Origin: Verrucomicrobiota bacterium
GTDB lineage: Bacteria > Verrucomicrobiota > Verrucomicrobiia > Opitutales > Opitutaceae
Length of the DNA stretch: 34,896 nucleotides
Direction of reading: 5' to 3'
Assembly: GCA_025352985.1 (NCBI GenBank)
Contig: JANXRL010000171.1
Coordinates: 1-34,896 of the forward strand
A program made the translations under genes and the position numbers. A model generated the notes under the pieces. The model was not told the DNA's origin, did not search any database, and worked only from the letters and a program-made list of their open reading frames with translations. Below are positions 11,399-32,149 of this stretch, in pieces. Numbering within the stretch: the first letter of the stretch is position 1; each line of letters opens with the position of its first letter.

Positions 11399-11491
11399 CC
11401 GATCTCGATGCGGCGTATGGGAAACCCCTCCATTTGCAGATAAATTTTCCCAATAGCTGCCACGGGCACGCGTTCTGCTAAAATAAAGTTG

Positions 11492-11521
11492 GTAACACTT
11501 TTTACCATAATCGTAACACTT
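11492..11521. promoter_or_regulatory. Candidate operator GTAACACTT-N12-GTAACACTT
   Basis: Two exact GTAACACTT direct repeats with 21-nt start-to-start spacing, 10 bp before the ATG at 11531; same arrangement recurs at 18873-18902. Confidence 0.6.
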
Positions 11522-11530
11522 ATCCTCACC

Positions 11531-12505
11531 ATGCGCCTACGTAACCTGATTGTCCTCCTCGCGGTTGCCGCCACTTCCGCCGCCTCCGCCGCCCCTCTTA
11601 AAATCGCCTTTTCAGACTGGCCCGGCTGGACCGCCCTCGAAATCGCCGCCCAGAAGGGCTGGTTCAAGGAAGCCGGCGTTGATGTTGATCTCCTCTGGTT
11701 CGAATATGGCCCGTCCATGGAGGCTTTCACGGCGGGCAAGTGCGACGCCGTGACCGTCACCAACGGCGACGCCCTCGTCACCGGCGCCGGCGGCGCCAAA
11801 AACATCGCCGTCCTCATCACCGACTACTCCAACGGTAACGACATGATCGTCGGCCAGCCCGGCATCAAATCCATCAAGGACCTGAAGGGCAAAAAAGTCG
11901 GCATCGAGATCGGCTTCGTCGAACACCTCCTCCTTTTGAACGGCCTGAAGAAAGCCGGCATGGCCGAGTCCGACGTCACCCTTGTCCCCACGCCCACCAA
12001 CCAGACCCCGCAGGTGCTCGCCTCCGGTCAGGTTGACGCCATTGGCGCCTGGCAGCCCAATTGCGGCGCCGCCCTCAAGGCCGTCGCCGGCTCCAAGCCC
12101 GTTTACACCAGCGCCGACGCTCCCGGACTCATCTATGACGCCATCGTGGTCACACCCCAAAGCCTCGCCCAGCACCGCGCCGAGTGGGTAAAGGTTGTCA
12201 AAGTTTGGGACAAAATCGTCGCCTACCTCGCCGACCCGAAGACCCGCGAAGACGGCATCAAGATCATGGCCGCCCGCGCCGGCGTGGACCCGAAGGAATA
12301 CGCTGCGTTTATGCCCGGCACCCGCCTGCTCACCCTTGACGAAGGCGCCAAAGTCCTCACCACAAAAACAGACGGCCTCGATTCCGTCATCGGCTCCTCC
12401 AAGATTGCCAACGAGTTCAACGTGAAAAACGGCGTCTACAAAGAGTCACAGGACGTGGGCGGCTACCTCGACGCCTCCCTGACCGTTGACGCGCTGAAGA
12501 AGTAA
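11531..12505 (+). CDS. ABC transporter substrate-binding protein (NMT1/TauA-like)
   Basis: Signal peptide then APLKIAFSDWPGWTALEIAAQKGWFKEAGVDVDLLWFEYGPSMEAFTAGKCDAVTVTNGDAL; followed by permease and ATPase genes. Confidence 0.92.
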   Translation: MRLRNLIVLLAVAATSAASAAPLKIAFSDWPGWTALEIAAQKGWFKEAGVDVDLLWFEYGPSMEAFTAGKCDAVTVTNGDALVTGAGGAKNIAVLITDYSNGNDMIVGQPGIKSIKDLKGKKVGIEIGFVEHLLLLNGLKKAGMAESDVTLVPTPTNQTPQVLASGQVDAIGAWQPNCGAALKAVAGSKPVYTSADAPGLIYDAIVVTPQSLAQHRAEWVKVVKVWDKIVAYLADPKTREDGIKIMAARAGVDPKEYAAFMPGTRLLTLDEGAKVLTTKTDGLDSVIGSSKIANEFNVKNGVYKESQDVGGYLDASLTVDALKK

Positions 12506-12524: not shown

Positions 12525-12557
12525 CGGGTGCGTTGGAACCCAACGCACCCGTTTTCT
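12525..12557 (+). terminator. Intra-operon hairpin / attenuator-like terminator
   Basis: Perfect 12-bp stem CGGGTGCGTTGG-aac-CCAACGCACCCG followed by TTTTCTT between SBP and permease genes. Confidence 0.75.
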
Positions 12558-12583
12558 TATCGCCCAGCTTTACGCAGGCTCTC

Positions 12584-13624
12584 ATGTCACGCCCACGCTG
12601 GTTCTCCGTCCGCCAAGAGCTGACCCCCAAGCGCAGCCGCTTTCTCGGCGTGCTCGCTTTCATGCTGCCGCTGGCGTTGTGGAGCCTGTTCAGCTACATA
12701 CCCTGGCTCTGGCACCCGATGGTCAAGGTGACCGACCCCGGAGACGTGGACTGGATGCGCGCCGGCCTGCTCATCAATCGCCACGACTTCGACAAGGAAG
12801 TCGCCACCGCCCAGCTCGCCCACACGCACGCTCCCGTAGGATTTCGCGCAAACCCCATTTATTTTCCCGCTCCCCACGCCGTCATCCGCTCGCTCTATAC
12901 CGCCTTCACCACCGCGCCCGTCCTGAAGGGTGACCTCTGGCTCCACCAAAGCCTCTGGATGAGTATCCAGACGATCTTCTGGGGCTTCACGATTTCGTCC
13001 GTCGTTGGCATTCCGCTCGGCATTCTCTGCGGCTCCTTCATCGCGATCTCGCGCCTCACCGAGCCGTTCGTCGATTTCGTCCGTTACATGCCGGCCCCCG
13101 CGTTCGGCGCGCTCATGGTCGCCATCTTCGGCATTCAACTCGAACCCAAGATCGCCATCATCGTCATCGGCACCTTTTTCCAGCAGGTCCTCGTCGTCGC
13201 CAACACCGTCCGCAAAGTGGATTGCGCCCTCATCGAGGCCGCTCAAACCCTCGGTTCCAAACGTCGCCAGCTCGTCCTGCGCGTCATCGTCCCTGCCAGC
13301 CTGCCCGACCTCTACAACGACACCCGCATACTCCTCGGCTGGGCTTGGACCTACCTCATAGTCGCCGAGGTCGTCGGCGTCAGCTCGGGCATTTCTTTTT
13401 TCATCAACCAGCAGGCCAAATATAGGAATTTCGACAACGTTTACGCCGCCATCATCATCATCGGAATCCTCGGCCTCACCATCGACCAGATCCTCGCCTT
13501 CGTCGGCCACCGCCTCTTCCCCTGGAAAAATCCGCGTCCCAGCCGCATCCGCGCCTTTCTCGGAAAACTCTTCGGCCTCCGTCCCGCCTCCGCCGAAAAA
13601 CCCGTGCAACTCCTCCCGCAATGA
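12584..13624 (+). CDS. ABC transporter permease (TauC/SsuC-like)
   Basis: BPD-type motif region [45 protein letters not shown]. Confidence 0.92.
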
Positions 13625-14517
13625 GCGAGCCCCTTCCCGATTACCGCGACCAATCCCCCGCCGTCGCCGCCCGCTTTGCGAAAATCAAGGAGCGCCCCGT
13701 CGTCCTCGAAATTGATCGCCTAGGCCGCCAGTTCCCAGGCGAACACGGCCCCGTCGTGGCGCTGCGCGACATCTCTTTCAAAGTCCACCGCCGCGAATTC
13801 GTCTGCGTCATCGGCCCCTCCGGGTGCGGCAAGTCCACCCTCATCCGCATCATCGCCGGCCTCGACGAACCTACCTCCGGCCGCATGCTCGTGGACGGCA
13901 AGGAAACCAGCGGCCCCTGCCCCGAGCGCGGCATGGTTTTCCAAGGCTACACCCTCTTCCCGTGGCTCACGGTGAAAAAGAACGTCATGTTCGGCCTCAA
14001 GATGCAGGGCATGGACGGTGGCCAGGCGGATCGCGAGGCCCGCCAGTGGATCGACCTCGTCGGCCTCACGCGCTTCGCCGATACCTACCCCGCGCAACTC
14101 TCCGGCGGCATGAAGCAACGCACCGCTATCGCCCGCGCCCTCGCCGCCAACCCACGCGTCCTTCTCATGGACGAACCCTTCGGCGCCCTCGACGCCCAGA
14201 CCCGCGCCCAGATGCAGTCCCATCTCCTCGAAATCTGGCGCAACGTGGACGTCACCATCCTCTTCATCACCCACGATCTCGACGAAGCCATTTTCCTCGC
14301 CGACCGCATCCTCGTCCTCAAAGCCCACCCCGGCGAAGTCCAAGAGGTGATCGAGGTGCCTGTCCCGCGCCCCCGCAACCTCTCCCAGCTCAACTCACCC
14401 GAGTTCCTCGCCACCCGCCGCCGCCTCGAAGAACTCATCCACCCGCGCGTCGATGCTCACGCTCACGAACACCTGCCCATCATCCGTCTCACCCAAGCCG
14501 GCGACGACGTGGAATAA
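13621..14517 (+). CDS. ABC transporter ATP-binding protein (TauB/SsuB-like)
   Basis: [16 protein letters not shown] (Walker A), [32 protein letters not shown] (signature, Walker B); overlaps permease stop by 4 bp. Confidence 0.96.
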
Positions 14518-14568: not shown

Positions 14569-15366
14569 ATGCCGCCCGCCAAGAAATCGAAAGCCCCCGT
14601 TCTCTGGAGCCGCTTAACCTGGCCCGAGATCGCCGCGCTTCCGTCCGACGGCATGGATGCCGTCATGCTCCCCTGCGGCGCGACCGAACAACACGGCCCG
14701 CACCTCGGCACCGGCATGGACACCTCGCTCGCCACCCACGTCTGCGCCGCCGTCTCCGCCGCGACCGGCGTGCCCGTTCTTCCCGCACTTTCCTACGGCT
14801 GTTCCCTCGGCCACTCCCACCGCTGGCCCGGCACGCTCGCCCTCCAACCCCAGACCCTCATCGCCCTCGTTACCGACCTTGGCGACTGGCTTTTTCGCGC
14901 CGGTTTTCGCCGCCTCTTTCTCGTCAACAGCCACGTCACCAACGCCGCCCCGCTCCGCTGCGCCCTCGAAATCCTCCGCAGCCGCCACGACGGCTTCATG
15001 GTCGCCGTCCTCAACACCGCCGAAGTCAGCCCCCGCGTGAAAAAAGCCTTCTGCGCCGACGCCGCCGACTGGCACGCCAACCAAGCCGAGACCGCCCTCA
15101 TGCTCGCGCTCGCCCCTGAGCTCACACGCCCGTCCCTCCTCTCCACTTCCGACGACCCCGACCGCACCACCGGTCTCGTCTTCGCCCATCCCGTCAACCG
15201 CACCAGCGCCAACGGCGTGACCGGCACGCCCTCCCGCGCCACCGCCGCCCAAGGCCACCGCCTCTTCCGCTGGATCGTCGCCGACCTCGCCAAAACCGTC
15301 CGCCGCGCCCTCCGCGAAAACCCTCCTCTCCCGCACGCTTACTCCGTCCCCGCTTCCGTTTCCTGA
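14569..15366 (+). CDS. Creatininase-family amidohydrolase
   Basis: [50 protein letters not shown] (variant creatininase motifs retaining the putative E/H/D metal ligands). Confidence 0.85.
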
Positions 15367-15384
15367 TTTCCAGCTTTCCACATT
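15359..15384 (+). repeat. 26-bp dispersed repeat (inverted copy at 20396-20421)
   Basis: TTTCCTGATTTCCAGCTTTCCACATT is the exact reverse complement of AATGTGGAAAGCTGGAAATCAGGAAA at 20396. Confidence 0.85.
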
Positions 15385-15395
15385 AAAAAATTCCC

Positions 15396-16760
15396 ATGAA
15401 ACCTGATACCGAAATCCTCGCTCTCCAAGCCGACCTCAAAGCCAAAGGCGTCAAATACGTCGTCGGCGCCTACCCCGACATCCACGGCGTCCCCAAGGGC
15501 AAATTCGTCCCCATCGACCATTTCGCCCACTTCGCCCACGGCTCCGAACTCTACACCGGCTACGCCCTCGACGGCCTCGGCCAGTCCCCCAACGACGACG
15601 AGATCGCCTCCGTCCCCGACCTCGACCGCGGCATCATTCTCCCCTGGAACAAACAGGTCGCCTGGTTCCCCGCCGACAACACCTTTCACGGCCAACCCTA
15701 CGACATCAGCACCCGCGTCGCGTTGAAAAACGTCCTCGCCGACGCCGCCTCTCTCGGCTTCGGCTTCAACCTTGGCATCGAGTGCGAAGTTTACGTCGTC
15801 AAACTCGGCGCCGACGGCAAATCCCTCTCCATCCCCAACCCCGACGACCGCCTCAATAAGGCCTGCTACGACATCCAGGGCTTCATGGACCGCTTCCCTT
15901 GGCTCGACAAGGTTTCCACCGCCATCAACGACCTCGGCTGGGACCTCTACTCCCTCGACCACGAGGACGCCAACAGCCAGTTCGAGTTCGATTTCAACTA
16001 CAGCGACGCCCTCACCATGTGCGACCGCTACGTCTTCTTCCGCACCATGGCCCGCCATTACGCCGCCGAGGAAGGCCTGCTCGCCACCTTCATGCCAAAA
16101 CCCTTCGCCGACAAAACCGGCAACGGCGCGCACTTCAACATGTCCCTCTCCGACCTGAAGACCGGCGCCAACGCCTTCAAGTGCGACCCCAAGGACGACC
16201 CCCGCGGCCTCGGCCTCACGCCCGTCGCCTACTCCTTCATCGCCGGCATCCTCCGCCACGGCCCCGCCCTCTGCGCCGCCTTCGCCCCCACCGTCAACAG
16301 CTACAAGCGCCTCGTCCGCCGCGGCCTCATGAGCTACTACTCCTGGGCGCCCGTCTTCAACAGCTTCGGCACCAACAACCGCACCAACTCCATCCGCGTC
16401 CCCATGGGCGGCGGCCGCTGCGAAAGCCGCAACGCCGACTCCGCCTGCAACCCCTACCTCGCCGCCACCCTCGCCCTCGCCGCCGGCCTCGAAGGCATCC
16501 GCGAAAACCTCGACCCCGGCTCGCCGCAGGAGGACAACCTCTACGAACTCCCCGAAGCCGAACTCGCCCGCCGCGGCATCAGCTACCTCCCGCAGACCTT
16601 GCAGGAAGCTGTAGCCGCCTTCGCCGCCGACCCGTTCATCACCAAAACCCTCGGCCAGGGCCTGCGCGACGAATTCGTCACCTACAAATCCGAAGAGTGG
16701 CGCCAATACCACCAGCAGGTCAGCGCCTGGGAAATCGACCGCTACGCCCGCATGTTCTGA
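15396..16760 (+). CDS. glnT: Glutamine synthetase family protein, GlnT / type III-like
   Basis: [64 protein letters not shown]. Confidence 0.88.
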
Positions 16761-16812: not shown

Positions 16813-17253
16813 ATGCCCGTTTCCCCCAAAAAAGAACGTCTGGCCCGCTTCAGCGTCTCGCTTCCCGAGAGCCTGCTCGACGAACTTGACACGATGGTGG
16901 ACCGCCGCGGTTACAAGAGCCGCTCCCACGCCGTCGCTGCCTTAGCCCGCGACGGCCTGGTGGACTACGCAAGCCAGCTCGGCACCGAGTCGGTCGCGGG
17001 CACCATCAGCCTCGTTTACGATTACACCAAGAAAGGCCTCCAGGCCCGCCTCGCTGCCATCCAGCACAAGTATTACCTGCTCGTTGTCTCCAGCATGCAC
17101 GTCCACCTTGAGCATCACAACTACCTCGAAATCCTCCTCGTGCAGGGCAAGGCCAGCGAACTCCAGAAGCTCACCGACGAACTCGTCACATGCCGCGGTG
17201 TAAAAAACGGTAAGCTCAACCTCACCGCCACGTCCATCCCGCCGCTGCTCTGA
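16813..17253 (+). CDS. NikR-like ribbon-helix-helix regulator lacking the canonical Cys ligand
   Basis: RFSVSLPESLLDELDTMVDRRGYKSRSHAVAALARDGLVD (RHH) plus ACT-like domain QHKYYLLVVSSMHVHLEHHNYLEILLVQG...RGVKNGKL. Confidence 0.9.
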   Translation: MPVSPKKERLARFSVSLPESLLDELDTMVDRRGYKSRSHAVAALARDGLVDYASQLGTESVAGTISLVYDYTKKGLQARLAAIQHKYYLLVVSSMHVHLEHHNYLEILLVQGKASELQKLTDELVTCRGVKNGKLNLTATSIPPLL

Positions 17254-17351
17254 TTGCGATTGGGCGGCGACCCCGCGACTCCGCTTGCCCTTCCGTGCGC
17301 GACACAATTGGGTGAACCCTGCTCGATTGAGCATGTCTATCCCCTCTTCCC

Positions 17352-18002
17352 ATGTCTCGCCGCAATCCCCGTTTACTGGCCTCCTCAATTGCAGTCGTCG
17401 CCGCGGCCGGCTTCGTCTGGTATTTCTGGCCCGCCGCTCCCCGAAGCCAGCCCGCTCCGGCACCACGCACCGCTTTGCACCAGCCCGATCAAACGCCGCC
17501 GAAACCGACAGTCTCGCCGTCGGTTGCCGTCGCCCCAAACCCCGCGACCACAGGATCGCTCACGGCTCCCAAAAAGGAAACCGAACCCGCGATCGATTCC
17601 ATTTTGCGGGACACGTCGCTCGATAACATCGGCGCCGCCCGCGCTCTCGGCGGCTTGGTTCAGGACTCTTCGCTCAGCCTCGACGCCCGCGCCGAGGCCC
17701 TTGCCCACATGCTTAATTTATCCGTAAACAACGAAACCTCGCTGCTTCTCCCGCTCGTCCAGTCCCGCGACCTCCCCGACTCGCTCGCCAGCACGATACT
17801 CAGCGATGCGCTCAACGGTCCGCTTACCTGGCAGGCGGATGCGTGCCTGGCCGTCATGGCTCGCACGACGGGAAAAGAGCTTCGCACCCAGGCCAGCGAA
17901 CACCTCGTGTTCCTAACCGGAGAAGACCACGGCGACGACATCAACGGCTGGACGCTCGCCGTGCGAAACACGCGCGCGAAGTGGGACGCCGCCGGACAGT
18001 AA
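17352..18002 (+). CDS. Membrane-anchored hypothetical protein
   Basis: N-terminal TM (LLASSIAVVAAAGFVWYFW), Pro-rich linker, helical C-terminal domain. Confidence 0.7.
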   Translation: MSRRNPRLLASSIAVVAAAGFVWYFWPAAPRSQPAPAPRTALHQPDQTPPKPTVSPSVAVAPNPATTGSLTAPKKETEPAIDSILRDTSLDNIGAARALGGLVQDSSLSLDARAEALAHMLNLSVNNETSLLLPLVQSRDLPDSLASTILSDALNGPLTWQADACLAVMARTTGKELRTQASEHLVFLTGEDHGDDINGWTLAVRNTRAKWDAAGQ

Positions 18003-18032
18003 GGCACTCCTGGGCACAACCCCGAGGCATTG

Positions 18033-18087
18033 GGAGTGTCCACCTCCGTGTGGACCGGTTCGACCCGGACGACACAGAGGTCGTCCT
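18033..18087. repeat. Tandem hairpin (REP/BIME-like) intergenic element
   Basis: GTCCAC-ctccgt-GTGGAC at 18039-18056 and GGACGAC-acagag-GTCGTCC at 18068-18087. Confidence 0.45.
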
Positions 18088-18143
18088 TCCCCGTCCATCT
18101 AAGTCAAAGCAAACTTTGGATTATCAACGAACTTCATGGACAC

Positions 18144-18180
18144 AAAAAAGCCGCCCCGAGAAATTCCCGGGGCGGCTTGA
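18144..18180 (-). terminator. Rho-independent terminator (for the minus-strand gene)
   Basis: Minus strand AAGCCGCCCCG-ggaattt-CTCGGGGCGGCTTTTTTG. Confidence 0.85.
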
Positions 18181-18194
18181 AAACATTTGGCCGA

Positions 18195-18689
18195 TTACGG
18201 TATCGCCGGACCGGTGAAAATCACGTTGCCGGATTGAATCGAGCCGGTCGCCGGAACGGTTTTGACCGGCGGGACCGAGAAGAAGCCGCGCCCAAATTGG
18301 TTGGCCAAAGTCGGCGAGGGCAATTGGAGCAACACACCTTCAAGGGTCACCTTGCGACCGTCCGTCAAAATAAAGCTGCCCGAGAATAAGCCAGTCCTAG
18401 GAGTAATCGTGACCGCGAACTTCCTGTCGTTCGTAGGATTTACCCGAACCTGAACCTGTGGCCACAAAACGGTGTCAACAAAATTAGAGTCAGCCCCTAT
18501 GGCGGTAAAATCAGTCGTGCCGACCACAGTGATGACGTAAATGCCACCTTTGGAGATTGAGCCGACAGACAGTGCGACGGGACTACCCGTTATCACTGCG
18601 GCTTTGGCAAAATCGTCATTGCTGGGAGACACCGCCCAAACAGGCGAACTCATTAAAACAAAACTCAGAACCGCTAAGAGGTATTTCAT
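18195..18689 (-). CDS. Secreted protein of unknown function
   Basis: Signal peptide MKYLLAVLSFVLMSSPVWA followed by VSPSNDDFAKAAVITG and GGIYVITVVGTTDFTAIGADSN. Confidence 0.7.
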   Translation of the reverse strand: MKYLLAVLSFVLMSSPVWAVSPSNDDFAKAAVITGSPVALSVGSISKGGIYVITVVGTTDFTAIGADSNFVDTVLWPQVQVRVNPTNDRKFAVTITPRTGLFSGSFILTDGRKVTLEGVLLQLPSPTLANQFGRGFFSVPPVKTVPATGSIQSGNVIFTGPAIP

Positions 18690-18872
18690 AGGACAAAAAA
18701 TTCAGGGGGGAAATCGGAAATCGGGAAAATCGCCATTGGGAAACGCACAGGAAAAGCAACATCACAGAACCTTAGCCCTCAATTTTAGTCAGAGACACCA
18801 AAACCATCCCATAAAACCAGTGATCATCACCTTCCAAACGCCTCGCATCACCCGCTTGGCACCGATCTTGCA

Positions 18873-18902
18873 ATAACACGTTTTATACATTTCGTAACAC
18901 TT
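18873..18902. promoter_or_regulatory. Candidate operator ATAACAC-N14-GTAACACTT
   Basis: Same 21-nt half-site spacing and same right half-site as 11492-11521; 18 bp before the ATG at 18921. Confidence 0.6.
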
Positions 18903-18920: not shown

Positions 18921-19724
18921 ATGCCTCCCCTAGTCCCGCCCGCCCCGTCCGGCACCTCCTTCACCACTCAACGCCCGACCGGTCTCCCGCCAACCCCACC
19001 CGTCGCCATTCCCACCGACCTCCTCCTCCATGAAGAAACCCTTCCCGGCGGCGCCGGCTGGTCTGCCACCGTAAAACGCGGCCAGTCTCTCCGCCTCACT
19101 GCACTCGAAGCCCGGGCCAACGTCTCCTTGATCTGCTTCAACCGGCACAATCCGGTGGATCGCTACAACATGGCTGACACCCTCAAAGGCCAGCACACCG
19201 CCAAGCTCACCACCGGCTACATCTTGGTCTCCGACATGGGCCGTGCGATGTTCTCCGTCACCGGTGACACCCTCGGCTGGCACGATCCCCTCGGCGGCCA
19301 CGATACTGCCGCCATCGTCCGCAAAAAATGGGGCGATAAAAACTACCAGACCGCCCGTAACGCCTGGCATCGCAACAGCCGAGACCACTTTCTCATCGAG
19401 CTCACCAAGCACGGCCTCGGCTCCCGCGACCTCGTCGCCAACGTCAATTTTTTCAGCAAAGTCTCCGCCGACGCCGAGGGCCGCCTTCACTTCCACCCCG
19501 ACCACGCCAAGCCCGGTGATTTCGTCGATCTGCGCGCCGAGATGGATCTCTTCGTGATCCTCACGACCTGCCACCACCCGCTCGACAACGCGCCCGCCTA
19601 CGACCCAAAGCCGGTGCAACTCCAGCTCTGGCGTTCGCCTCCCGCCGCAGTTGACGACTACTGCCGCACCTACCGCCCCGAAAACGAGCGCGCCTTCTAC
19701 AACGCCGAGCTTCTCTACCGCTGA
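18921..19724 (+). CDS. DUF1989 urea-carboxylase-associated protein (carboxyguanidine deiminase subunit type)
   Basis: LFHEETLPGGAGWSATVKRGQSLRLTALEARANVSLICFN...GWHDPLGGHD; paired with a second DUF1989 gene and upstream of the carboxylase. Confidence 0.88.
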   Translation: MPPLVPPAPSGTSFTTQRPTGLPPTPPVAIPTDLLLHEETLPGGAGWSATVKRGQSLRLTALEARANVSLICFNRHNPVDRYNMADTLKGQHTAKLTTGYILVSDMGRAMFSVTGDTLGWHDPLGGHDTAAIVRKKWGDKNYQTARNAWHRNSRDHFLIELTKHGLGSRDLVANVNFFSKVSADAEGRLHFHPDHAKPGDFVDLRAEMDLFVILTTCHHPLDNAPAYDPKPVQLQLWRSPPAAVDDYCRTYRPENERAFYNAELLYR

Positions 19725-19727
19725 GTC

Positions 19728-20387
19728 ATGAGCACCCTCATCTACACCGAAAGCCCGCTCGCCCCCGCCGCCGCGACCTACCGCCACGTCATCCCCGCCG
19801 GCGATTTCTGGATGCACGAAATCAAACGCGGCCAAACTCTCCGCATCGTGGACCTCGAAGGCAACCAAGCCGCCGACACCCTCTTCTACAACGCCGCCGA
19901 TTTCCGCGAACGTTACAGCGCGCAGGACACCATCCGCGAACAAGCCGCCCTCTACCTCACCACCGGCACCAAGCTCCTCTCCAACGAGTGCAACGTTCTC
20001 GCCGTGATCACCGCCGACACCTGCGGCCGCCACGACACCCTCGGCGGCGCCTGCGCCTGCGAAAGCAACGCCGTCCGCTACGGCCACGGCACGAAACACA
20101 TGCACTCGTGCCGCCAGAGTTTTCTCCTCGGCCTCGCCACCTGGCCCCACGCCCCTTTCGACCTCAACAAACGCGACATCCCCGCGAACATTAATTTCTT
20201 CATGAACGTCCCCGTCACGCCCGAAGGCGGCCTCAAGTTCGAAGACGGCGTCAGCGCCGGCGGCAAGTATGTCGAGATGCGCGCCGAGATGGACCTCGTC
20301 TGCCTCATCTCAAACTGCCCCCAGCTCAACAACCCCTGCAACGGCTACAACCCCACCCCCGTCGAAGTCCTCATCTGGAACCCTTGA
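19728..20387 (+). CDS. DUF1989 urea-carboxylase-associated protein (carboxyguanidine deiminase subunit type)
   Basis: [37 protein letters not shown]...[21 protein letters not shown]. Confidence 0.9.
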
Positions 20388-20395
20388 ATTCCATG

Positions 20396-20421
20396 AATGT
20401 GGAAAGCTGGAAATCAGGAAA
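20396..20421 (-). repeat. 26-bp dispersed repeat (inverted copy of 15359-15384)
   Basis: AATGTGGAAAGCTGGAAATCAGGAAA. Confidence 0.85.
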
Positions 20422-20433
20422 ACTCCTTCGACT

Positions 20434-20473
20434 CCGTTTCCAACTTTCCAGCTTTCCCTATTAAAAATTTCCC
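20434..20473 (+). repeat. Diverged third copy of the 26-bp repeat forming a hairpin with 20396-20421
   Basis: CCGTTTCCAACTTTCCAGCTTTCCCTATTAAAAATTTCCC versus CCGTTTCCTGATTTCCAGCTTTCCACATTAAAAAATTCCC at 15356. Confidence 0.75.
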
Positions 20474-20486
20474 GTTTCCGCGTCCC

Positions 20487-23400
20487 ATGTTCTCAAAAGT
20501 CCTGATCGCCAACCGCGGCGCCATCGCCTGCCGCGTCATCCGCACCCTGCGCAAAATGGGCATCGCCAGCGTCGCCGTTTACTCCGACGCCGACCGCCAC
20601 AGCCTCCACGTCTCCCAAGCCGACGAAGCCATCCCCATCGGCTCCAGTCCCGCCGCGCAAAGCTACCTCGACGCCGACAAAATCCTCGCCGCCGCGAAAC
20701 AGACCGGCGCCCAAGCCATCCACCCCGGCTACGGCTTCCTCTCCGAAAACGCCGCCTTCGTCGAAGCCTGCGAAGCCGCCGGCATCGCCTTCATCGGCCC
20801 CCGCGCCGCCCAGATGCGCCAGCTCGGCCCCAAACACTCTGCCCGCGCCCTCGCCAAAGCCCACGGCGTCCCCCTCCTCCCCGGCACCGACCTCCTCCCC
20901 GACCTCGCCACCGCCCAGCGCGAAGCCGCCCGCATCGGCTACCCCGTCATGCTCAAGAGCACCGGCGGCGGCGGCGGCATTGGCATGTCCCTCATCCGTA
21001 AACCCGCCGAACTCGCCCCTGCCTTCGAGTCCGTCGTCCGCCTCGCCAAAAACAACTTCAAGGACGGCGGCGTCTTCCTCGAAAAATTCGTCGAACACGC
21101 CCGCCACATCGAAGTCCAGATCCTCGGCGACTCCCACGGCCGCGTCGTCGCCCTCGGCGAACGCGACTGCTCCGTCCAGCGCCGAAACCAAAAGGTCGTC
21201 GAAGAAACCCCCGCCCCCGGCCTCACCCCCGCCCAACGCGCCGAACTTCTCGCCTGCGCCGCCCGCCTTGGCACCGTCGCCGCCTACACCAACGCCGGCA
21301 CCGTCGAATTCGTTTACGACAACGCCACCGGCCATTTCTACTTCCTCGAAGTCAACACCCGCCTCCAAGTCGAACACGGCGTCACCGAAGAAGTCACCGG
21401 CGTGGACCTCGTCGAGTGGATGATCCGCGCCGCCGCCGGCGAACTCGACCTCCGCGACTACGTTCCCTCCGCCACCGGTGCCTCCATCCAGGTCCGCCTC
21501 TACGCCGAAGACGCCGGCAAAGCCTTCCAACCCGCCGCCGGCACCCTCACCGACGTCCACTTTCCTTCCTCCGCGCGCATCGAGACCTGGGTCGAGACCG
21601 GCAGCGAAGTCTCCGCCTTCTACGATCCGATGATCGCCAAGATCATCGTCCGCGGCACCGACCGTGCCGACGCCCTCGCCCGCCTCGACTCCGCCCTTGC
21701 CGACACCCGCGTTTACGGCCTCGAAACTAACCTCCCCTACCTCCGCCAGATCATCGCCAGCGAGGGCTTTCGTATCGGCTCCGTCACCACGAAATACCTC
21801 TCCACGCTCCCCTTCGTTCCCTCCACAATCGAAGTCCTCGAAGGCGGCACCCAAACGACCGTTCAAGACTACCCCGGCCGCATCGGCTACTGGGACGTCG
21901 GCGTCCCGCCCTCCGGCCCGATGGACAACGTGTCCTTCCGCCTCGCCAATCGCCTCGTCGGCAACCCCGACACCGCCGCCTCCCTCGAACTCACCGTCAG
22001 CGGCCCGTCCCTCCGCTTCAACACCGCCGCCGTCGTCGCCCTCACCGGCGCGCACATGCCCGCGACGCTCGACAACAAACCCGTCGCCCAACACCGCGCC
22101 ATCCGCGTCCGCGCCGGCCAGACTCTCCGCATCGGCTCCATCGACGGCCCCGGCCTCCGCGCCTACCTTGCCATCCGCCACGGCCTAGACGTGCCCGACT
22201 ACCTCGGCAGCAAATCCACCTTCACCCTCGGCCTCTTCGGCGGGCACTCCGGCCGCGCCCTCCGCACCGGCGACGTCCTCCGCGTCCACACCTCCACGCC
22301 CGCCGGCGTCCTCACGTCCGCCCCTCTCCTCCGCGCCCCCGCCTCGATCCAGCCTCCACTCACCCGCGAATGGCAGATCGGCGTCCTCTACGGCCCGCAC
22401 GGCGCGCCCGAATTCTTCACCGAGGCCGACATCTCCGTCCTCCTCTCCACCGCCTACGAAGTCCACTACAACTCCGCCCGCACCGGCGTCCGTCTGATCG
22501 GACCCAAGCCAGAGTGGGCCCGCCGCGACGGTGGCGAAGCCGGCCTGCATCCCTCCAACATCCACGACAACGCCTACGCCATCGGCGCCGTCGATTTCAC
22601 CGGCGACATGCCGATCATCCTCGGTCCCGACGGCCCCAGCTGCGGCGGCTTCGTGTGTCCGTTTACGATCGTGCAAGCCGAGCTCTGGAAAATGGGCCAG
22701 CTCAAGCCCGGCGACAAAGTCCGCTTCACCGCGTTGACCGCCCAACACGCCCGCGAACTCGCCTTCGCTCAGGAATCCGAAATCGAAACCCTCAAGCGCG
22801 TCTCCAAGCCTGTTTGTCACTTATTAAGTGACAAACCTCCGGAGCCCGCCGTCCTCCATTCTCTTCCCGCTCGCCCCACCGCACCCGCCGTCGTTTACCG
22901 CCGCCAAGGCGACGCCAACCTCCTCATCGAATACGGTCCGCTCCAGCTCGACATCGCCATGCGCATGCGCGTCCACGCGCTGAAAACCTGGCTCGAACGC
23001 CACAAGGTCTCAGGGCTCATCGACCTCACCCCGGGCATCCGTTCACTCCAAGTCCACTTCGACTACCACCTCCTCCCGATGGAACGCCTCCTCGAAATTC
23101 TTCTCCGCGCCGAGAGTGAGCTCCCCGCCATCGACGACATCGAGGTCCCCTCCCGCATCGTTCACCTGCCGCTTTCGTGGGAAGACGAGTCCACCCTCCT
23201 AGCCATCCGCAAATACATGCAGATCGTCCGCAAGGACGCCCCGTGGTGCCCGAGCAACATCGAATTCATCCGCCGCATCAACGGCCTCGACTCGATCGAC
23301 GACGTCCACCGCATCGCCTTCGAGGCAAGCTACCTCGTCATGGCCCTCGGCGACGTCTACCTGGGCGCGCCCGTCGCCACACCCGTCGATCCCCGCCACC

Positions 23401-24098
23401 GCCTCGTCACCACGAAGTATAACCCCGCCCGCACTTGGACCCCCGAAAACGCCGTCGGCATTGGCGGCGCCTACCTTTGCGTTTACGGCATGGAAGGCCC
23501 CGGCGGCTACCAGTTCATCGGCCGCACCTGCCAGATGTGGAACCGCTACAAACAGACCGCCGACTTCACCGACGGAAAACCCTGGCTCCTCCGCTTCTTC
23601 GACCAAATCCGTTTCTATCCCGTCACCAACGCCGAGCTCACGAAATTCCGCGAAGATTTCCCGCAGGGAAAAGTAAAACTCCGCATCGAGGAAACCACCT
23701 TCCGCCTACGCGACTACCAAAAGTTCCTCGCCGACCACGAAGCGACCACCACGTCCGCCAAGGCCCGCCAGCAATCCTCCTTCGAAGCCGAGCGCAAACG
23801 CTGGGAAGACAGCGGCCAGCTCAACTTCTCAGCCAGCGAAGAGACCGCCGCCTCCGGCGACGAATCCGCCATCCCCGAGGGCTGCGTTGCGCTCCCCGCG
23901 CATATCCCCGGCAACGTCTGGAAAATCCTGGTCGAGCCCGGCGCGAATGTCGCCGAGGGACAGCCGCTCGTGATCCTCGAATCCATGAAAATGGAGGTTA
24001 CCGTCACCGCCACCCGCGCCGGTGTCATCCGCGAAGTCCGCTGCGCCGAAGGCCGCCCTGTCAACGCCGGCGAAACCCTCATCGTCCTAGAAGGCTGA
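20487..24098 (+). CDS. Biotin-dependent urea/guanidine carboxylase
   Basis: Biotin carboxylase (MFSKVLIANRGAIACRVIRTLRKMG, GGGGIGMS), KipA- and KipI-like domains, C-terminal biotinyl motif ESMKMEV. Confidence 0.95.
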   Translation: MFSKVLIANRGAIACRVIRTLRKMGIASVAVYSDADRHSLHVSQADEAIPIGSSPAAQSYLDADKILAAAKQTGAQAIHPGYGFLSENAAFVEACEAAGIAFIGPRAAQMRQLGPKHSARALAKAHGVPLLPGTDLLPDLATAQREAARIGYPVMLKSTGGGGGIGMSLIRKPAELAPAFESVVRLAKNNFKDGGVFLEKFVEHARHIEVQILGDSHGRVVALGERDCSVQRRNQKVVEETPAPGLTPAQRAELLACAARLGTVAAYTNAGTVEFVYDNATGHFYFLEVNTRLQVEHGVTEEVTGVDLVEWMIRAAAGELDLRDYVPSATGASIQVRLYAEDAGKAFQPAAGTLTDVHFPSSARIETWVETGSEVSAFYDPMIAKIIVRGTDRADALARLDSALADTRVYGLETNLPYLRQIIASEGFRIGSVTTKYLSTLPFVPSTIEVLEGGTQTTVQDYPGRIGYWDVGVPPSGPMDNVSFRLANRLVGNPDTAASLELTVSGPSLRFNTAAVVALTGAHMPATLDNKPVAQHRAIRVRAGQTLRIGSIDGPGLRAYLAIRHGLDVPDYLGSKSTFTLGLFGGHSGRALRTGDVLRVHTSTPAGVLTSAPLLRAPASIQPPLTREWQIGVLYGPHGAPEFFTEADISVLLSTAYEVHYNSARTGVRLIGPKPEWARRDGGEAGLHPSNIHDNAYAIGAVDFTGDMPIILGPDGPSCGGFVCPFTIVQAELWKMGQLKPGDKVRFTALTAQHARELAFAQESEIETLKRVSKPVCHLLSDKPPEPAVLHSLPARPTAPAVVYRRQGDANLLIEYGPLQLDIAMRMRVHALKTWLERHKVSGLIDLTPGIRSLQVHFDYHLLPMERLLEILLRAESELPAIDDIEVPSRIVHLPLSWEDESTLLAIRKYMQIVRKDAPWCPSNIEFIRRINGLDSIDDVHRIAFEASYLVMALGDVYLGAPVATPVDPRHRLVTTKYNPARTWTPENAVGIGGAYLCVYGMEGPGGYQFIGRTCQMWNRYKQTADFTDGKPWLLRFFDQIRFYPVTNAELTKFREDFPQGKVKLRIEETTFRLRDYQKFLADHEATTTSAKARQQSSFEAERKRWEDSGQLNFSASEETAASGDESAIPEGCVALPAHIPGNVWKILVEPGANVAEGQPLVILESMKMEVTVTATRAGVIREVRCAEGRPVNAGETLIVLEG
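22812..22836. repeat. Palindromic element inside the carboxylase CDS
   Basis: GTTTGTCACTTA-T-TAAGTGACAAAC, perfect 12-bp arms; encodes CHLLSDK. Confidence 0.9.
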
Positions 24099-29997: not shown

Positions 29998-32016
29998 TTA
30001 AAAGCTCACGCTAGAACCCGCATAAACAAACCGTCCTTGCCCCGGATAAACGACCGTGGTCGGCGCAAACAGCGGCGGAGGATAACCGATGTTCGAATAT
30101 GAAACATAGGAGCGGTCGAAGAGGTTGTTTACCCCTGCAAATATCCGCCATTTCTCCGACGGACTGTAGCTGATCTTCGCATCGAACAAATTGATCCCGG
30201 CCACGCGGCCCGGCGAGGTGCCCGCATACGAATCGTCCACCAGGCTGCTGCCCATGTATTTGTGCGTCAGGCTTACGTCCACGGCCTTGATCGGACGCAC
30301 GACCGCCGTCGTGGTGAGCCGCAAAGCCGGCGTCATCCGCAGCGTCCCGTCGCTCACCAAACCCGCGCCCGGCGTGCTCTCGATCAACTGTGCATCGACG
30401 TAATCCGCCCGCGTGCGCAACCCGGCAAATCCGGCATCGTAACCGGCGTTGAGCTGTGCGCCAATCCGCCGTGTTTCCGCGAGGTTTTCATTCAGATTCG
30501 TGGCTGAATTATAAAAAATCTCGTCCTGCGTGGTGAGATAATAAACCGAGGTGCCCGCGCTCCATCCGTGTTTCTTGAAGTCGGCGCCGACCTCGTAGTT
30601 GTCACTGGTTTCGGGCTTCAGGGCTTTGTTGAAAAACTGGTTAAAGCCGGGACCGCCGAGAAAGCCTTGGTAATAGGAAATCTCGTCGGTCGCAGGGAAA
30701 CGATACGTATGGTCGTATTTCGCATACAGGTGCAGATCGGCGGTCGGCTTCCAGTTCGCGGCGAGCTGCACGGCGCTGCCGTCGTCGGAGCGGTTCGATT
30801 TGTCGCTGGCCACGTCTTCGCGGGCGGCGATCACGTTCCACTCGTGACGGTAGGCGGCCGACAGCGAAAACTCATCCGACGCCTTCCACTCCGAGCCCAG
30901 ATAGGGGCTTAGCACCTTCCGGGTAAGCGTGCTTTCCACAGGCGTAGTGGTGCGCACGTAAAGCTCGTCGTAGTTCACATCAACACCAGGCGTGAACGCA
31001 AAATCGCCAGCTTCGACATGCACCTTCGGCGAAAAGAAAAAGCCGTTCATCTTGCGGTTAAAATCCGTTCCGAAACCGCCATGGTAAAACTCCCGCACAA
31101 AACTCGCCCCCGCATCCGTGAGCAGCTTGGCCTGCGGACTGACGCCGAATTCGTTGCTCGCGGAGACGCGGCGGTAGTCCGACCAGCCGTTTGACGAGTT
31201 GGTGCCCTGCTGGGTGGGATCCTGCCGGAACTGAGCCATCGTCAGATATCCAGGCTGGTCGTAATGATTATCGAGAAACGAGGCGTTGATACGCGTGGCG
31301 GAGTTCTTGTGGTTGTCGTAACCGGCGCCGATGGAGGCCGACTTGTTGTCGTAGCCGGAATGGTCGCGCCAGCCGTCGGACGTATCGTAGCCGCCGGAGG
31401 CAGAGGTCCACGCGTTGCCAAACAACTCCGTGTAGCCGCCCGATAGCTTGAGCGTGCCGTCGCTGCCGACCAGCACCTGCGCCCTGCCGCCGCTTTGGGA
31501 CGGCGCGCCACGCGTGTTGATCTTGATGACGCCGCCCACCGCGTTGTCGCCGTAGAACGCACCCGCCGGACCCTGGATGATCTCGATGGAATCGATGTCC
31601 TGCAGGCTGAACTGAAGCCAGTTGAACTGGCCCGAGTCCGCACGATTAACGCGGATGCCATCCAACAGGACCAGCGTGCGACCATTGCCACCCGCGCTGC
31701 CGCCGCTCGTGCCGCGGAGAGAAATCGTGGTGTTCGTCGCGCTGCTTCCCAGAGACGTGAACTGAAGATTCGCCTCGTCCTCGAGGAGATCGATCACGTT
31801 AAGCGCGTCGCTCTTGTCGATTTGTTCGCGCGAAATGACCTGCGTGTAGGCCGGCACGTTGGAAGTATCCTCGGGAATCCGGCGCGCCGTGACGACGTAA
31901 TCCTCCAGTTGGATGACGGGCACGGTCTGCCCGCGCACGATGGAAACGAGCGGCGCCACAACGGCGCACGCGAATAGGAAGCGGCCCGCCTGGCGGGAAC
32001 GCGAAGGGATGTTCAT
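29998..32016 (-). CDS. TonB-dependent outer-membrane receptor (BtuB-like, probable corrinoid uptake)
   Basis: Signal peptide, QLEDYVVTARRIPEDTSNVPAYTQVISREQIDKSDALNVIDLLEDEANLQF plug, C-terminal ...GRFVYAGSSVSF; cobalamin-riboswitch-like leader upstream. Confidence 0.9.
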   Translation of the reverse strand: MNIPSRSRQAGRFLFACAVVAPLVSIVRGQTVPVIQLEDYVVTARRIPEDTSNVPAYTQVISREQIDKSDALNVIDLLEDEANLQFTSLGSSATNTTISLRGTSGGSAGGNGRTLVLLDGIRVNRADSGQFNWLQFSLQDIDSIEIIQGPAGAFYGDNAVGGVIKINTRGAPSQSGGRAQVLVGSDGTLKLSGGYTELFGNAWTSASGGYDTSDGWRDHSGYDNKSASIGAGYDNHKNSATRINASFLDNHYDQPGYLTMAQFRQDPTQQGTNSSNGWSDYRRVSASNEFGVSPQAKLLTDAGASFVREFYHGGFGTDFNRKMNGFFFSPKVHVEAGDFAFTPGVDVNYDELYVRTTTPVESTLTRKVLSPYLGSEWKASDEFSLSAAYRHEWNVIAAREDVASDKSNRSDDGSAVQLAANWKPTADLHLYAKYDHTYRFPATDEISYYQGFLGGPGFNQFFNKALKPETSDNYEVGADFKKHGWSAGTSVYYLTTQDEIFYNSATNLNENLAETRRIGAQLNAGYDAGFAGLRTRADYVDAQLIESTPGAGLVSDGTLRMTPALRLTTTAVVRPIKAVDVSLTHKYMGSSLVDDSYAGTSPGRVAGINLFDAKISYSPSEKWRIFAGVNNLFDRSYVSYSNIGYPPPLFAPTTVVYPGQGRFVYAGSSVSF

Positions 32017-32149
32017 GGGTGTCTGCTTTTGTCTAAGGCAAGAGCAGGCACCCGCCCCGTTAGCACGGGGAAAGGCGGCTACTCTCACGCTTCATTTTTG
32101 CGATGAAGGGAATGCCACCGGAACGCGCAATCGCACCGATGGACGTGAG

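Follow-up and report, generated by a model that had tools for sequence, protein, structure and literature searches.

The window analysed here, a stretch of 34,896 nucleotides from a member of the Opitutaceae (Verrucomicrobiota), carries the gene of a NikR-family protein that we consider likely to act as a metal-blind, local repressor of an operon for guanidine import and degradation, from which guanidine or a pathway intermediate would release it, with DNA binding, repression and the inducer all being inferred. The regulatory link between this protein and the guanidine catabolism genes is well supported by the sequence comparisons below, which cover the operon, the regulator and its lost nickel site, the phylogenetic distribution of the locus type, and the predicted operators and promoters.

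The Guanidine Operon of the Window

The features of the locus lie in the following order:

11464..11479 (+): predicted sigma-54 -24/-12 promoter GGGCACGCGTTCTGCT of the transporter half; 9/11 consensus positions, conserved in relatives, precedes operator 1
11492..11519 (+): predicted operator 1 ahead of the transporter genes, a direct repeat GTAACAC-N14-GTAACAC; no binding data
11531..12505 (+): substrate-binding protein (SBP) of an NMT1/SsuA-type ABC importer; the ATG at 11531, which follows operator 1, is taken as its start
12533..13624 (+): ABC permease
13621..14517 (+): ABC ATPase
14569..15366 (+): creatininase-family amidohydrolase (PF02633), in some loci only
15396..16760 (+): type III glutamate-ammonia ligase-like protein (TIGR03105), in some loci only
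16813..17253 (+): NikR-family regulator without a nickel site and with a C-terminal IPPLL tail, identified by domain and profile matches, ligand alignment and an AF2 model
18857..18872 (+): predicted sigma-54 promoter TGGCACCGATCTTGCA of the degradation half; 11/11 consensus positions, followed without a gap by operator 2
18873..18900 (+): operator 2, ATAACAC-N14-GTAACAC, before UAAP1 and directly after the -12 element; predicted, no binding data
18921..19724 (+): UAAP1, carboxyguanidine deiminase subunit (DUF1989, TIGR03425)
19728..20387 (+): UAAP2, carboxyguanidine deiminase subunit (DUF1989, TIGR03424)
20397..24098 (+): guanidine carboxylase (TIGR02712; Asp733, Asp986), by the signature criterion of PMC11410670
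24105..25799 (+): allophanate hydrolase (Amidase + AH_C)

An insertion of about 1.6 kb separates the regulator from UAAP1 (17254-18856); it holds two open reading frames, one of them without a Pfam match, and is missing from most relatives. The creatininase-family and glutamate-ammonia ligase-like genes (14569-16760) recur within some guanidine operons. In Asticcacaulis, and at four Opitutales loci, the regulator gene and the transporter genes are divergently transcribed.

Guanidine carboxylases are told apart from urea carboxylases by Asp at the position of Kluyveromyces lactis residue 1330, which is Asn in urea carboxylase, together with Asp at 1584 (PMC11410670). Alignment with the full-length urea amidolyase of K. 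lactis (5i8i) places Asp733 of the window enzyme at the Asn1330 position and Asp986 at that of Asp1584, and because both residues satisfy the published criterion the enzyme is, by signature, predicted to be a guanidine and not a urea carboxylase; the guanidine-type Asp is present in all 56 of the carboxylases read at related loci. A two-subunit carboxyguanidine deiminase and an allophanate hydrolase adjoin the carboxylase, which meets the criterion for the guanidine pathway.

As the initial annotation had held, there is neither a urease nor a nickel transporter in the window, Pfam revealing none among the main open reading frames tested. More broadly, no metal-related genes were seen at the regulator loci, and the linkage to nickel transport or nickel enzymes expected of a NikR is replaced by linkage to a guanidine operon; the urease of the window's genome is encoded on another contig. 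In the genomes of three further loci (L057, L081 and L088), the presence of urease genes no more than about 10 kb from the guanidine operon is suggested by matches to the Rfam 5'ureB sRNA, which is antisense to ureB, and no strong operator of the regulator's type was found beside these putative genes. No guanidine riboswitch reached the gathering threshold in the window, which does contain a cobalamin riboswitch (RF00174; 32142-32416, minus strand) upstream of a TonB-dependent receptor gene (29998-32088).

The Regulator and the Loss of Its Nickel Site

The open reading frame at 16813-17253 translates to 146 residues from its ATG, and an in-frame GTG six codons upstream is a possible alternative start. 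Its product matches NikR_C (PF08753, E 1.6e-28) and RHH_1 (PF01402), scores 145.6 bits against the NCBIfam NikR model PRK04460 (cut-off 105), and has the domain order, ribbon-helix-helix and then NikR_C, that qualifies it for the family. The AlphaFold (AF2) model (pLDDT 84.6, pTM 0.59) adopts the NikR fold with 2bj3 as its top structural match (E 1.2e-13), the closest solved relatives being NikR proteins, and the DNA-contact strand RFSVSL is identical to that of Helicobacter pylori NikR.

Alignment with the Escherichia coli and Pyrococcus NikR structures equates H85, H96 and H98 with the E. coli ligands H76, H87 and H89, and puts Tyr104 (codon TAC, 17122-17124) at the position of C95, so that the ligand set reads HHHY and the His3-Cys criterion is not met. 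The initial annotation, which had aligned the protein by eye, thus proves correct in describing a NikR-like regulator with an H. pylori-like contact strand, its His ligands kept, its Cys replaced by Tyr and its canonical ligand set lost. The annotation named a sequencing error at this codon as grounds for refutation, but such an error is ruled out: among relatives found in other assemblies, Tyr occupies the position in each of the 17 whose sequence extends over it, and comparison with ten relatives gives dN/dS values of 0.03-0.34, from which we conclude that the gene is functional and, by this codon-level measure, under purifying selection.

Across the wider set of guanidine-locus regulators the nickel site is degenerate in many ways. 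At Verrucomicrobiota guanidine loci the four positions read HHHY, HSHY, HNHY, HLHS, HHLT, HRLT, RHLI, RHLV, RHLT, RHFT, RHQT, RHQR, YHLT, YHHT, RQLV or RQMN; plasmid-borne regulators of Novosphingobium and Sphingobium have AHFS, those of Acinetobacter QHQI and QHQV, and that of Asticcacaulis Leu, His, Phe and Ser (an alignment judged by eye). Cys is absent from every member of the group that covers the position, and His3-Cys is broken in each regulator tabulated from these loci. The His ligands that have gone differ between subgroups, some of which retain one ligand or none; HHHY, with H76, H87 and H89 in place, persists in most Opitutaceae members including that of the window, and two Tyr-type regulators have also lost H87 (HSHY, HNHY). 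Loss of the nickel site throughout this group is well supported by the alignments. Tyr is only the local form of something larger: the site has been lost throughout the group, and the Cys-to-Tyr change is the shape that this loss takes in the Opitutaceae.

Two features have been gained. Gln111 is invariant (56/56), whereas canonical proteins mostly have Arg or Lys there, and a C-terminal [ILM]PP[LIV] tail (PQL in one case) is carried by 54 of the 56 proteins as against 0 of 94 canonical ones, the remaining two having PQV.

The NikR proteins of our sample that are not at guanidine loci are HHHC, with the exceptions of one HHYC protein and of a divergent DRAS/DRLS/NRTS lineage. The latter is a second, independent NikR_C lineage without any nickel ligand, located away from guanidine loci and found in one genus (g70) of the Verrucomicrobiota sample (L064, L065, L068, L073, L111 and L167-L170); its L065 member sits near Hsp70-like and EamA genes, and GTATTAC-N13-GTAATAC palindromes occur at some of its loci.

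A Single Clade at Guanidine Loci

NikR_C and UAAP1 searches over an evenly drawn sample of 390 Verrucomicrobiota genomes showed a NikR_C protein within 7 kb in 38 of the 45 genomes with UAAP1 above the cut-off. When the regulators from this sample were combined with relatives from other sources, those of guanidine loci formed one clade of 56 proteins on a single branch (SH-aLRT 99), which also holds when the four ligand columns are removed from the alignment, and in which the Proteobacterial proteins, from Sphingomonads and Acinetobacter, are nested. UAAP1 lies within the fetched stretch at 52 of the 56 loci; at two loci (L006 and L007) the UAAP genes do not follow directly. Because the association between regulator and guanidine locus is found inside one clade, it does not reflect many independent events. 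That there is one such clade, linked to guanidine-carboxylase genes and sharing a predicted operator and promoter anatomy, is directly visible in the sequences. The initial annotation had asked whether Cys-to-Tyr proteins form a clade linked to DUF1989/carboxylase loci: the tree does contain a clade tied to these loci, but Tyr does not define it.

A regulator remnant lacking the N-terminal DNA-contact strand lies at 4495-4830 of L077, on a contig shared with L015, in a near-complete genome without UAAP1, and is apparently a case of regulator decay after loss of the operon.

Predicted Operators and Sigma-54 Promoters

Exact pairs of the half-site GTAAYAC (or its complement) occur 35 times at N14 in the clade loci, and none was seen when the other spacings between 6 and 23 were counted. 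They lie before the SBP, UAAP1 or regulator gene, with half-sites either direct or inverted; in Acinetobacter they precede UAAP1, the regulator and the permease, and Sphingomonad loci also carry them. No exact pair was found in the seven UAAP1 loci without a regulator; no known riboswitch was found in these seven either, and we reject the idea that one replaces the regulator there. The operator 1 pattern has only one match in the 2.9 Mb genome assembly of the window, and the predicted sites of that genome are confined to the guanidine operon. A recognisable operator (at most one mismatch) is missing from 17 of 48 SBP upstream regions, and since operators are thus unrecognisable in about a third of loci, the half-sites of some subgroups may have drifted.

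The signal predicted for delta-proteobacterial NikR is GTGTTAC-N13/14-GTAACAC with variable orientation (PMC545781). The half-site of the clade equals this predicted half-site, at N14 and as a direct repeat in the window, so that the NikR criterion of such paired half-sites at target promoters is met; canonical NikR genes in the same sample have similar pairs nearby. From the shared half-site and these similar sites we infer that the DNA code was inherited and the metal site lost. Retention of a nickel regulon is rejected, the urease contig of the window's genome carrying no operator at up to two mismatches.

The operators are accompanied by predicted sigma-54 elements, defined as GG-N10-GC and scored with a threshold of at least 9 of 11 positions against a background of random 260-nt pieces. 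This score is reached in 24 of 31 operator-bearing SBP upstream regions and 9 of 12 for UAAP1, compared with 2.8% of the random pieces. The distance from the -12 GC to the start of the operator is exactly 3 nt in eight UAAP1 promoters. Three divergent Opitutales loci have the reverse order, with the operator placed between the two divergent genes and ahead of the sigma-54 element. A sigma-54 DNA-binding-domain sequence, split at contig ends, was found in the window's genome.

Proposed Mechanism and Competing Explanations

We propose that the regulator, retaining the ribbon-helix-helix part and ACT-like C-terminal domain of the NikR fold as well as the NikR half-site, would bind pairs of GTAAYAC half-sites 21 bp apart at sigma-54 start sites, before the transporter genes and before UAAP1, where it would block transcription; binding has been inferred, and so has repression, which is assumed because a protein bound at the operator should obstruct the start site. 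Nickel as co-repressor would have been replaced by guanidine (most likely) or a pathway intermediate, which may bind the remodelled regulatory domain and free the protein from DNA, and nitrogen limitation would enter as a separate input via sigma-54. The inducer is probably guanidine or a related small molecule, a conclusion drawn from gene context alone without ligand-binding evidence; the signal could still be glutamine, 2-oxoglutarate or urea, or the protein might have no ligand. In the Acinetobacter locus L053 a guanidine-I riboswitch lies between the operator and UAAP1, which independently ties this locus type to guanidine. There (Acinetobacter baumannii, L053 842-999) the operator, GTATTAC-N14-GTAATAC, stands just before the riboswitch, and UAAP1 is apparently under double control.

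The same repressor could respond instead to general nitrogen status, through glutamine or 2-oxoglutarate at the ACT-like domain, or act without a ligand through its protein level and sigma-54, a possibility that we regard as rather unlikely. ACT-type domains often bind amino acids, a glutamine-synthetase-like gene lies inside some of the operons, and the promoters are of the sigma-54 type linked to nitrogen limitation; yet that gene is missing from many loci, sigma-54 already supplies nitrogen control, and the confinement of operators in the window's genome to the guanidine operon suggests a pathway-specific signal. We give very little credence to the regulator gene being an accidental neighbour, for which nothing speaks except the missing experiments, and which is contradicted by adjacency conserved across phyla, by NikR-type operators at the same promoters and by their absence where the gene is absent.

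The remaining alternatives keep a metal as the signal. That the protein is an ordinary nickel-responsive NikR with a harmless substitution and a regulon of nickel genes is what the curated models, in naming it NikR, would imply, and there is a urease elsewhere in the genome; we nevertheless strongly disfavour nickel, because the site is lost clade-wide, Cys in every member covering the position and His ligands in many, and because the urease has no nearby operator at up to two mismatches, the operators being at guanidine genes. That the Opitutaceae proteins use a His3-Tyr site to bind Cu, Zn, Fe or Co is improbable: three His and the Tyr are kept in most of them, but HSHY and HNHY exist inside the Tyr group, other subgroups keep one ligand or none, and the loci hold nothing related to metals. 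Weak metal binding by Opitutaceae members is not excluded, because three of four ligands persist in most. The initial annotation had suggested a NikR repurposed for another metal or for a small molecule such as a nitrogen compound; the latter is strongly supported by the single guanidine-locus clade, the degenerate ligands and the promoter operators, while a different metal is an improbable signal when the entire clade is considered, since its members share no common set of ligands.

Relation to Known Systems and Significance

With the NikR proteins of E. coli, H. pylori and Pyrococcus horikoshii the clade shares fold, domain order and the RFSVSL strand, and with those predicted in delta-proteobacteria the GTAACAC half-site and a spacing of two helical turns. 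It differs in lacking the nickel ligands, in the change from Arg/Lys to Gln111, in the new tail, in targeting guanidine and not nickel genes, and in operators that are often direct repeats and overlap sigma-54 promoters; its ancestry and fold make it a member of NikR, although it fails the nickel criterion.

FrmR belongs to the CsoR/RcnR family. This formaldehyde-sensing repressor (PMC5146963) offers a precedent for a metal-sensor family turned to a small organic molecule, although the fold and chemistry of the present clade are unrelated to it. The guanidine carboxylase operons of Pseudomonas syringae and Vreelandella boliviensis (PMC12508155, PMC11410670) resemble that of the window in their ABC importer, deiminase pair, carboxylase and allophanate hydrolase. 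Control of the V. boliviensis operon has been ascribed to guanidine riboswitches, whereas the window has no threshold-level riboswitch of that kind and has a NikR-like protein with its own operators, and the Acinetobacter locus has both.

A 2025 review states that, transporters and enzymes aside, no receptors for guanidine are known other than its riboswitches, and we found no published description of a NikR-like regulator of guanidine operons in the open-access literature. We put forward, as a tentative reading that falls somewhat short of even chances, that the clade is the first case of a transcription factor made of protein that responds to guanidine, a counterpart of the riboswitches that acts together with one in Acinetobacter, and that arose as the metal site was decommissioned, the DNA code was kept, and a small-molecule pocket and a new C-terminal tail were gained.

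For the guanidine-locus clade, automatic annotation as 'NikR' is misleading. The clade provides a concrete candidate for a protein guanidine switch, with predicted operators mapped, in at least two phyla, and, if this is true, it would be an example of a metalloregulator that has dropped its metal while retaining its operator code.
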